Part shown: piece after piece, positions 19,635-23,059 of the stretch
Layout of the letters: the number at the start of each line of letters is the position of its first letter
Position numbering within the stretch: position 1 is the first letter of the stretch
Origin: Miltoncostaea marina
Lineage (GTDB): Bacteria > Actinomycetota > Thermoleophilia > Miltoncostaeales > Miltoncostaeaceae
Length of the DNA stretch: 64,000 nt
Assembly (NCBI RefSeq): GCF_018141525.1
Contig: NZ_CP064655.1
Location: 992,001 to 1,056,000 of the forward strand
Direction of reading: 5' to 3'
The notes under the pieces: generated by a model
Database searches by the model: none
Seen by the model: only the letters and a program-made list of their open reading frames with translations
Told to the model about the DNA's origin: nothing
Program-made: the position numbers and the translations under genes

Positions 19635-20171
19635 GTGAACCCGACCGCCCTCGTCATCACGATCGCCTACAGCGTCGTGTCGTTCCTGGCGATCGCCCTG
19701 GTCGTCTGGATCTGGCGCTCCACGCTGCCCGCCCGCCCGCGGCGCACGGACGAGACCGACACCCACAGGCTGGCCCACCGCGAGAAGGCCTGGTTCGCCA
19801 TCGCCGTCGCGAGCCTGGGCGTCCTGCTGCTGGCCACGCTGCCGTTCATCCCCTACGGCGACAACTCCGCCGAGGCCGGGCAGCAGCGTGTCGAGGTCAA
19901 CTCGATCCAGTTCGCCTGGGACATGGAGCCGCGCACCGTCACGGCCGGCACCCCGGTGCGCTTCACGGTCACGACCGCCGACGTCAACCACGGCTTCGGC
20001 GTCTACAACGACGACAACGTGATGCTGTTCCAGATCCAGGTGGTGCCCGACCACCCGAGCGACGTCGTCTACACGTTCAAGGAGCCCGGCCGCTACCAGA
20101 TCGTGTGCCTCGAGTTCTGCGGCGTGGGCCACCACAACATGCTGAGCACCTTCGAGGTGGAGCCGGCATGA
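19635..20171 (+). CDS. ctaC: Cytochrome c oxidase subunit II (CuA subunit)
   Basis: 178 residues, short for the family. Two membrane helices (about 6-28 and 50-72) precede a cupredoxin domain with the CuA ligands: VNHGFGVY supplies one His, and CLEFCGVGHHNM supplies two Cys, a His and a Met. It receives electrons from cytochrome c and passes them to subunit I. GTG 19635 is probably leaderless. It overlaps ctaD by ATGA. Size and partner resemble ba3/B-family oxidases. Confidence 0.93.
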   Translation: MNPTALVITIAYSVVSFLAIALVVWIWRSTLPARPRRTDETDTHRLAHREKAWFAIAVASLGVLLLATLPFIPYGDNSAEAGQQRVEVNSIQFAWDMEPRTVTAGTPVRFTVTTADVNHGFGVYNDDNVMLFQIQVVPDHPSDVVYTFKEPGRYQIVCLEFCGVGHHNMLSTFEVEPA

Positions 20172-22147
20172 GCACCCACGTGGACGCCGCCGCCGGCGAG
20201 GAGTACGTCGACCCCGCGCCGGTCGCCGACGCCACCGACCGGGGGATCGCCCGGCGTCTGACGATCCAGTACGTCGTCGCGTCGACCGTCATCTTCCTGG
20301 CGACCGGCCTGCTCGGCCTGGCGATGCGCCAGAGCCAGGCCGACGTCTGGCGGTTCGACGACAACACCTGGTACGCGATCATGACCGCCCACGGGCTCGG
20401 CGCCTTCGTGGGCTGGGCGGCCTTCGCGGTGATGGGTCTCTCGTTCTGGGTGCTGAGCGAGGTCGGCTTCCCGATGGGCCGGGCAGGCACGGCGCTCGCC
20501 CGCCTCACCTTCTGGCTCATGGTGATCGGCGTCGCCGGCGTCGTGGTCACGACGCTCGGCTTCTCGTTCGCCGGGTCGTGGGTCTTCCTCTACCCGCTGC
20601 CGTTCGAGTCGGCCGGCCAGTGGGGCGACGGGGCGACCGGGTTCTTCTCCGCCTCCGTGCTGCTCGTCGGGCTCTCGATCGTGACCTGGTGCCTGGCGAT
20701 CCTCGTGATCGTGCTCGGCCCGGGCCTGCGCAGCCAGGGCGGCGGCCTGCTCAACCGCGTGGGCGCGGCGATGGGCTTCGGCTTCATCTGGCCGAAGCGG
20801 TTCCGCACCGAGCGGCCGGTGCCCTACGCGGTGATCCCGCTCACCGTGATCGCGATCGACATGATCATCGCCACGCTGCCGCTCGCGGTGCTGCTGGTCG
20901 CGATGATCATCCAGTCGTTCGCGCCGAGCGTGTCGGTCGACCCGCTGCTGGCGAAGAACGTGCTGTGGTGGTTCGGCCACCCGGTGGTCTACCTGCTGCT
21001 CTTCCCCGCGGTGGCGATCTACTACCTGCTGGTGCCGCGCTTCGCGAAGCGGCGCCTGGTGGCCGGCAACATCATCGCCGTGGCCTGGGCGATCGCGATC
21101 GTCGCCAACGTCACCGTGTGGGCCCACCACATGTACATGGACTACCCGAACGGGATCCAGGCGGCGATCAACACCACGATGGAGCCGATCACCTTCGCGC
21201 TCACGATCGTGTCGGCGCTCAGCCTCTACAGCCTGTTCTTCACGATCTTCCGCTCGCGCTGGACCTGGAACGCGGCGAGCACCGCGCTGTTCCTCGGCCT
21301 GGCCAGCTGGCTGCTGGCGGGGCTGTCGGGCGTCATCAACGCGACGATCGCCTGGAACGCCTTCGTCCACAACACGCTCTGGGTGGTGGGCCACTTCCAC
21401 CACATGGCGCTCATCAACATCGGGATCGTCATCTTCGGGGCGATCTACGCGTTCCTGCCGCGGCTCATCGGCCGGCCGCTCTACAGCGACCGCCTGGGCA
21501 TGTGGCACGTCTGGCTGACGTTCGCCGCCGGCACCGCCAACAGCGTCATCTGGCTCATCCAGGGGCTCGACGGCGCGCCGCGCCGGTTCGCGATCCTGCC
21601 GGAGCAGTACAGCGCCTACAACGCGGCGGCGATCCCGGTGGTGATCGTGCTCGCGCTGGCGCAGCTGCTCTTCGTGTGGAACATGATCCAGACGTTCCGC
21701 GGCGCGACGACCGCCGCCCAGGCGCGCAGCCTGCTCGACGGGCTGCAGCGGCCGCGGCTGACGAGCGCCCCGCTGCAGGCCCTCGGCGTGGTGCTGACGA
21801 TCCTCGTGCTGACGGGCCTCGGCACCGCCGGCTGGGCGGTCGGCCGCGGGACCGACGACGACTCGCGCATGGCGTTCGTCCCGCAGCCGGCGGCCGCCCA
21901 GGGCGGTGCCGGCGGGCCCGGGCTGGAGGTGTTCGTCGCCTCCGGCTGCGGCAGCTGCCACGCCTTCCAGGCGGCGGGCTCGACCGGCGCGGTGGGCCCG
22001 AGCCTCGACGAGCGCGCGCCCACCGCCGATCGCGCCGAGCAGGTCGTCCGCAACGGGCTCAACGCGATGCCCGCCTTCGGCAACCAGCTCAGCGACGACG
22101 AGATCGAGGCGGTCGCGACCTACGTCGCGGAGAACGCCGCGCCGTAG
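20168..22147 (+). CDS. ctaD: Cytochrome c oxidase subunit I with C-terminal cytochrome c domain
   Basis: 659 residues. Residues up to about 560 form the heme-copper core: TAHGLGAFVGW (low-spin heme His), WFGHPVVYLLLFP (CuB His and the cross-linked Tyr of HPxxY), WAHHMYMD (two CuB His) and VGHFHHMALI (heme ligands). After a last helix (about 548-570) comes a linker and a cytochrome c domain with CGSCH near residue 594 and a distal NAMPAFG Met. A c-type heme fused to subunit I rather than subunit II is unusual. No subunit III gene is adjacent. ATG in an ATGA overlap. Confidence 0.93.
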   Translation: MSTHVDAAAGEEYVDPAPVADATDRGIARRLTIQYVVASTVIFLATGLLGLAMRQSQADVWRFDDNTWYAIMTAHGLGAFVGWAAFAVMGLSFWVLSEVGFPMGRAGTALARLTFWLMVIGVAGVVVTTLGFSFAGSWVFLYPLPFESAGQWGDGATGFFSASVLLVGLSIVTWCLAILVIVLGPGLRSQGGGLLNRVGAAMGFGFIWPKRFRTERPVPYAVIPLTVIAIDMIIATLPLAVLLVAMIIQSFAPSVSVDPLLAKNVLWWFGHPVVYLLLFPAVAIYYLLVPRFAKRRLVAGNIIAVAWAIAIVANVTVWAHHMYMDYPNGIQAAINTTMEPITFALTIVSALSLYSLFFTIFRSRWTWNAASTALFLGLASWLLAGLSGVINATIAWNAFVHNTLWVVGHFHHMALINIGIVIFGAIYAFLPRLIGRPLYSDRLGMWHVWLTFAAGTANSVIWLIQGLDGAPRRFAILPEQYSAYNAAAIPVVIVLALAQLLFVWNMIQTFRGATTAAQARSLLDGLQRPRLTSAPLQALGVVLTILVLTGLGTAGWAVGRGTDDDSRMAFVPQPAAAQGGAGGPGLEVFVASGCGSCHAFQAAGSTGAVGPSLDERAPTADRAEQVVRNGLNAMPAFGNQLSDDEIEAVATYVAENAAP

Positions 22148-22168: not shown

Positions 22169-23059
22169 TCAGTCGGCGCCCGCGCGCTCCGCGGCCGCCT
22201 CGGCCGCGAGCTCCTCGCGCGAGCGCGCGGCGACGCGCTCGACGTGGTTCCACAGCAGCAGCATGGCGGCGACCCCGAGGGTGAGCGTCTGCTCGGTGGT
22301 CATGAGCATGGCCGCGCGCACCTGGTCGCCGGTCGGCGTGAGGCCGAAGAGGCGCTCCTCCTGGGCCACGTAGACGTCGTACAGCGGGTCGCTGAGGAAG
22401 ATGGTCGTCGAGACCACCATGCCGACCGCCAGCAGGCCGGCGGCCATCGCCGAGCGCCGGGCGCCGCTCAGGCGCGCCCGCGGGATCGCGGCCGCGATGT
22501 GCAGCCACACGGCGAAGCCTGCGACGAACATCGTCGCGTGCTCGAGGTCGTGGGCCCAGCGGTGCGCGAGCGCGTACTCGAACGCCACCGGCACGTGCCA
22601 GAGGGCGGTGACCGCCACCCAGAGCACGACCGCCGCGAGCGGGCGGGTCAGGAACCGCGCCACCGCCCGCAGCCGCGGCGAGCGGCCGACCCCGCGCAGC
22701 AGCGGCCGGGGCACCGCGAACAGGGCCAGGGGTCCCGCGATGCCGAGCACGATCAGCAGCGGCGCAACGTCGCCCAGCAGCACGTGCTGCAGCATGTGGC
22801 CGGACAGCAGGTACTCCTCGCCGACCGGGTCGAGGGGGGAGAGCACCGACAGCAGCAGCACCGCGACGCCCGCGGCGAACAGCGCCGCCCGCCGGCCGTC
22901 GGCCAGGTCGGGACGCCCCCGCCGGCGCAGCCGGCGCCAGCCCACGGCGTAGAGGACGACGCCCGCGGCGGCGGCCGCCAGCACCAGCGGGTCGAGCGAC
23001 CAGGCGCCCGCGAGGTCGTGGTGGGCGGTCGCGCCGCCGGCGTGCAGTGCCCCGATCAC
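22169..23059 (-). CDS. ctaG: CtaG (caa3-type) cytochrome oxidase assembly protein
   Basis: 296 residues with about seven membrane helices. SGHMLQHVLLGDVAPLLIVLG, LWHVPVAFEYAL and HDLEHATMF carry the conserved His residues of the CtaG_caa3 family, which assists copper insertion into the CuB site. It is convergent with ctaD, with only 21 bases between the stops. The GTG start at 23059 has a TATTGA box 7 bases upstream, so it is probably leaderless. Confidence 0.9.
   Translation of the reverse strand: MIGALHAGGATAHHDLAGAWSLDPLVLAAAAAGVVLYAVGWRRLRRRGRPDLADGRRAALFAAGVAVLLLSVLSPLDPVGEEYLLSGHMLQHVLLGDVAPLLIVLGIAGPLALFAVPRPLLRGVGRSPRLRAVARFLTRPLAAVVLWVAVTALWHVPVAFEYALAHRWAHDLEHATMFVAGFAVWLHIAAAIPRARLSGARRSAMAAGLLAVGMVVSTTIFLSDPLYDVYVAQEERLFGLTPTGDQVRAAMLMTTEQTLTLGVAAMLLLWNHVERVAARSREELAAEAAAERAGAD

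Follow-up and report, generated by a model that had tools for sequence, protein, structure and literature searches.

The oxidase locus and its neighbours

We analysed a stretch of 64,000 nucleotides from Miltoncostaea marina (contig NZ_CP064655.1; hereafter the window). Within it, two oxidase genes lie on the forward strand, with frames that overlap by 4 bases (Table 1). The second frame runs for 659 codons before its stop, uninterrupted by internal stops, and carries both the Pfam COX1 and Cytochrome_CBB3 families, as the preliminary description had proposed when it placed a cytochrome c domain on subunit I. All of His75, His271, Tyr275, His320, His321, His409 and His411 were found in the COX1 core, and the nearest solved chain to the cytochrome c domain was 4pw9_B (E 1.7e-12). 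GC3 stays at an even level over the junction between the two parts of the gene. From its sequence, the donor cytochrome c appears to sit on the C-terminal end of the catalytic subunit, unlike the usual arrangement on the partner subunit. The fused subunit I stayed below the cut-off of all curated NCBIfam models, so enzymes of this kind are easily misnamed.

Table 1. Positions in the window of the two oxidase subunits, their features and the convergent assembly gene
Feature	Position	Strand	Remark
Subunit II, B-family oxidase, CuA cupredoxin domain, 178 aa	19635..20171	+	GTG start
CuA ligand His119 of subunit II	19989-19991	+	ba3 subunit II alignment
CuA ligand motif C-x-E-x-C-x3-H-x2-M, C158 to M169 of subunit II	20106..20141	+	
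Subunit I - cytochrome c fusion, 659 aa	20168..22147	+	single frame
COX1 catalytic core, residues 30-485	20255..21622	+	Pfam COX1, E 1.4e-65
13th hydrophobic helix, about residues 536-561	21773..21850	+	hydropathy 536-554; low-confidence model helix 534-561
Linker, about residues 562-585	21851..21922	+	Ala/Gly/Pro-rich second half
Monoheme cytochrome c domain, residues 590-653	21935..22126	+	Cytochrome_CBB3 PF13442, E 2.1e-14, over cut-off
Heme c attachment motif CGSCH, residues 594-598	21947..21961	+	
Met634, presumed sixth heme ligand	22067..22069	+	kept in 17/17 fused proteins
CtaG-type assembly factor, convergent	22169..23059	-	PF09678 (Caa3_CtaG), E 3.2e-45

Subunit II had been called short and limited to CuA. 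This was borne out: the CuA ligands are present, and no CXXCH motif for heme c was found over its 178 residues. The best solved match was the ba3 subunit II 1ehk_B (E 5.7e-17), with H119, C158, C162, H166 and M169 falling within the alignment. Scores against general families were marginal, at 21.7 of 22 bits for PF00116 (22.3 bits with neighbours in frame) and E 1.4e-17, under cut-off, for TIGR02866 CoxB. By eye the protein has two hydrophobic segments, and for this reason it probably includes the IIa helix, which is separate in ba3 oxidases. Both a separate IIa helix and a merged form are described for B-type oxidases (PMC3128077).

The nearest neighbours with Pfam matches are SHMT upstream and, 21 bases past the stop of subunit I, the convergent Caa3_CtaG gene. 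A CtaG homologue was found near the operon at 11 of the 17 fused loci described below, this one included, and at 0 of 15 unfused loci, as counted in the stretches around them. COX3 was absent from the eight neighbour genes scanned with Pfam. The genome also encodes an A-family oxidase, and its only COX3 match adjoins that enzyme. The lack of an adjacent subunit III gene, remarked on earlier, is therefore real among these neighbours but not peculiar: it is the rule for B-family (ba3) enzymes, which consist of subunits I, II and IIa (PMC3141039). The A-family subunit I (L095:6474-9416 on G000:C1) has 981 codons with COX1 at 182-615, and the long stretch C-terminal of COX1 matched no other Pfam family.

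Oxidase family and membrane topology

Compared with solved structures, subunit I ranked ba3 chains at the top (best E 9.1e-27) and A-family chains a close second (best E 9.6e-25), a small margin for ba3 over aa3. Subunit II also ranked ba3 first, by a wider margin, and the best solved relatives of the pair were subunits I and II of T. thermophilus ba3. The curated A-family model TIGR02891 gave subunit I 171 of 671 bits, far under its cut-off. Other assignments fitted less well. A caa3-type enzyme would have CXXCH in subunit II and an A-family subunit I, neither of which was found; a C-family (cbb3) enzyme is contradicted by the presence of CuA and by 45 of 583 bits against TIGR00780 ccoN; and the loss of the active-site Tyr that marks B-family NO reductases is not seen, Tyr275 being present. 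The active-site Tyr is a mark of O2 reductases. The six heme/CuB His and this cross-linking Tyr were kept in 17/17 fused proteins, and an O2 reductase is therefore expected.

We also examined the K-path of T. thermophilus ba3, to which Tyr248 and Ser261 belong; its residues are kept only in part. The equivalents of Tyr237 and Tyr248 are kept in the fused subunit I as Tyr275 and Tyr286, and the position of Tyr244 is occupied by Val282. Ser261, Ser309 and Thr312 are not kept at the aligned positions, the alignment being weak at the last two. In subunit II, E50 (the Glu15 equivalent) is kept in 17/17, within a stretch of alignment that scores only 4 bits. Apart from the two residues named first, K-path numbering follows PMC3141039.

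Hydropathy gave 13 helices for the fused subunit I after overlapping segments were merged and helix 11, which fell below threshold, was added. Helices 1-13 were also seen in an AlphaFold model of low confidence (mean pLDDT 54, with values below 50 over most of the c domain), built from a five-row alignment of the fusion protein and four relatives and used for helix order only. An odd number of helices places the C-terminus on the outer face, so that, given an inside N-terminus, the c domain would lie on this side of the membrane. Heme c attachment and CuA are both located on the outer face. The topology had been called unusual, and it is; with its 13th helix carrying the C-terminus outside, it is nonetheless sound. 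With its odd helix count, the B-family subunit I thus ends on the side of the membrane that such an attachment requires. From the modelled end of helix 13 (residue 561) to C594 there are 32 residues, or 39 when counted from the hydropathy segment, a span that should be enough for the c domain to reach much of the outer face. Linkers from helix to CXXCH ranged over 27-45 residues in 12 fused rows, a range that omits five of the 17 (G000, G128, G119, G067 and G184) in which helix 12 was picked instead. The number of C-terminal helices varies within the family, since Thermus has 13 and the B-family subunit I of Aquifex has 14 (PMC8251803).

Distribution and probable origin of the fusion

The preliminary description suggested searching for the same fusion in public genomes, and we found it in 16 further genomes of the class. 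Full-length fused homologues were present in 17 of 399 genomes (this one included), from 8 genera and 3 families, in a search limited to no more than three scored candidates per genome and to matches listed down to about E 2e-27. CXXCH and Met were intact in 17/17, and each locus had a neighbouring subunit II with CuA ligands checked and without CXXCH (17/17). The subunit II match of G312 (L053:4799-5335) contains one in-frame stop, either a draft-assembly error or a broken gene. Leaving out four partial matches (G170, G155, G346 and G136), the fused proteins make up 17 of the 32 full-length close homologues in the class; the other 15, at 49-57% identity, have no c domain. Thirteen of these 15 end after helix 12, and those of G150 and G180 after extra hydrophobic segments. 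The latter two proteins (L063:6176-8242 and L064:145-1992) carry about two additional hydrophobic segments at the C-terminus and in this resemble the Aquifex enzyme with its 14 helices.

The survey covered the class, the phylum Actinomycetota and plasmid records, with a GTDB scan that reaches close relatives only. Among 103 genomes of one other family, nine matched at E 1e-70 or better and 9/9 were fused; these are the same nine as in the class sample, partial G346 lying below the limit. Among 396 genomes drawn from the phylum, some of them from this class, with at most three candidates scored per genome, nine matched at E 1e-40 or better, all of them in this class and two of them fused. A tblastn search of plasmids returned five records at E 1e-20, outside the phylum and none covering 80% of the protein. 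In the two of these five records that were read, the subunits I, of 494 and 579 aa, had no CXXCH. The Thermomicrobium plasmid protein is without the GHPxVY motif and may, on this sequence feature, be something other than an O2 reductase. As to whether the fusion is common among B-family oxidases, on which its novelty had been said to depend, it is common in one lineage (17/32), but it is absent from 15 close relatives and from two distant plasmid-borne homologues.

A more distant group of COX1-family proteins in the same class shares 30-34% identity, with at least 16 members among the matches listed. Asn replaced the active-site Tyr in 10/10 aligned members and likewise in L083, so that 11 of the 16 were read. 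Representatives (L082:8704-10731, L078-L081, L084-L086, L046 and L047) keep the His ligands and, in uncut frames, extend at the C-terminus by about 155-220 residues that include hydrophobic stretches; a separate cytochrome c gene often comes after them. Judged by these residues they are probably B-family NO reductases, perhaps of the proposed type that PMC11388526 mentions as nNOR. At a minimum of six of the nine NOR-like loci examined, the subunit I frame was directly followed or overlapped by a cytochrome c frame. In the four of these cytochromes that were measured, a hydrophobic helix lies 41-47 residues before CXXCH.

This helix-linker-domain layout, common to the measured NOR-operon cytochromes and the fused domains, suggests an origin for the fusion: a cytochrome gene following the subunit I gene would have been joined to it in frame. 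We consider that the fusion probably arose in this way, from subunit I and a following anchored cytochrome c gene. The proposal is weakened by the failure to find the expected precursor: at the loci of 16 fused and 15 unfused proteins, several of them on short contigs, no separate cytochrome c gene was seen beside a close O2-reductase homologue. CXXCH-containing frames beside L058, L076 and L071 were considered as separate donors and rejected, as they matched no Pfam family. Helix 13 may be the former anchor of the cytochrome, on the basis of equal layout, not of a sequence match; Thermus ba3, which carries no c domain, has a 13th helix as well.

Phylogenetic trees pointed to a more complex history for G181 and G199 (L056:8066-10372 and L057:6850-9285). 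In the COX1-core tree both were placed with unfused proteins, weakly (93/81 and 82/54), and an AU test did not reject all fused proteins as one group (p 0.235). In the c-domain tree they grouped with NOR-operon cytochromes (100/99). A single fused clade was disfavoured there (AU p 0.028), in a test that leaves out four divergent own-genome rows and uses a grouping chosen after seeing the trees. These sequences make a second independent fusion, or a domain swap, possible in G181/G199. We tentatively suggest, while leaning slightly against it, a "c-ba3" class that originated, at least twice in one bacterial class, by in-frame fusion of an anchored cytochrome c to the B-family catalytic subunit, the old anchor becoming the 13th helix and the domain a built-in electron donor.

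Proposed function of the fused cytochrome and comparison with known systems

Taken together, the features encoded at this locus make it likely that subunits I and II form a ba3-like O2 reductase of the B family, with an anchored monoheme cytochrome c in subunit I acting as tethered donor to CuA. The fused c domain would receive electrons either from small cytochromes c of the lipoprotein type or from a menaquinol:cytochrome c reductase, and would pass them on the outer face to CuA of subunit II. From there the electrons would go to the low-spin heme and on to the high-spin heme/CuB site, where O2 would be reduced. The c domain would work as in caa3 enzymes, but with its tether through subunit I. 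The preliminary description spoke of a direct electron path from the attached heme; a tethered path is likely, and it may be direct.

The genome encodes heme A synthase and three Cytochrom_C_asm matches, with ResB represented only by a match below cut-off. PF13442 matched six proteins, the fusion among them, and one of the other five was below cut-off. By eye these five look like a PQQ-dehydrogenase-type protein, a cytochrome b/c-type quinol reductase (L099) and three lipoprotein-like small cytochromes. With other small cytochromes c in the genome, the fused domain may not be the sole donor. The idea that the fusion exists because the organism has no small cytochrome c found no support, given the six matches, three of the others being lipoprotein-like.

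The c domain could instead serve mainly as a docking partner or inlet for a cytochrome bc-type complex, anchoring a supercomplex in the way that the diheme QcrC of C. glutamicum is the donor to aa3. According to the account in PMC9145763, Actinomycetota join cytochrome bc and aa3 in a supercomplex, and C. glutamicum seemingly has no other cytochrome c. L099, by eye a cytochrome b-type protein that carries a c domain itself, fits this role, but the lipoprotein-like small cytochromes in the genome, also assigned by eye, do not call for it, and the eight Pfam-scanned neighbours include no bc-complex gene. We regard docking as the main function as rather unlikely, though the most serious competitor of the tethered donor. 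It is improbable that the domain acts as a redox sensor or as an appendage that transfers no electrons: sister enzymes do without it, but where it occurs CXXCH and Met are kept in every case (17/17) despite wide divergence of the domain, with end branches of up to about 0.6 changes per column. Reduction of NO, not O2, is brought to mind by the distant homologues within the class, which have Asn for Tyr (10/10 aligned) and in many cases a separate cytochrome c gene, yet Tyr is present in all 17 fused and all 15 unfused close homologues, which makes this reading very improbable. Finally, a chimera, frameshift or annotation artefact deserves virtually no credence, as there is no stop or frame change, and assembly error is ruled out by the recurrence of the same architecture in 16 other genomes.

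The tethered-donor reading indicates that a B-family catalytic subunit can carry a hard-wired donor cytochrome. The attachment point had been described as unusual, and rightly so, the c domain being on subunit I as against subunit II in caa3. The new element is this attachment point, the c module itself being familiar; c domains are described in subunits II of oxidases (PMC3084760). A natural enzyme with a tethered donor is suited to asking whether transfer from c to CuA limits turnover. Titles and abstract openings of the open-licence literature yielded no description of a c domain on a B-family subunit I. A report in Acidobacteria was discarded as a precedent, as PMC5900883, in the part consulted, deals with an oxidase of the bd type and not with subunit I of a heme-copper enzyme.

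Among known systems, Thermus thermophilus ba3 (1ehk, 1xme) shares the 13-helix subunit I, the same heme/CuB ligands, a small CuA subunit II and the lack of subunit III (PMC3141039). It differs in having a separate cytochrome c552 and a separate subunit IIa helix, whereas here the cytochrome is fused and subunit II has two hydrophobic segments. The A-family caa3 oxidases (B. subtilis; T. thermophilus 2yev) are alike in their tethered covalent monoheme c domain, CuA and a CtaG-type factor nearby, but carry the c domain on subunit II (PMC9145763) and not on subunit I of a B-family enzyme. The Aquifex aeolicus B-family oxidase (7deg) also has extra C-terminal helices on subunit I (PMC8251803); it differs in having 14 helices, and the part of that source drawn on here mentions no c domain. 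The nearest published analogue that we found is the halocyanin-IIa fusion of haloarchaeal B-type oxidases, in which a redox donor is likewise fused to a membrane subunit (PMC3128077), though it is a blue-copper halocyanin on IIa and not a heme c on the catalytic subunit. Closest to hand are the NOR-like COX1 proteins (L082, L085, L086 and L046), whose anchored cytochrome c shares the helix-linker-domain layout and is encoded immediately behind subunit I; they differ in that this cytochrome is a separate gene and that the active-site Tyr is missing. One module thus occurs within one class in two forms, as a separate gene in NOR-like operons and as a fused domain in the predicted O2 reductase.
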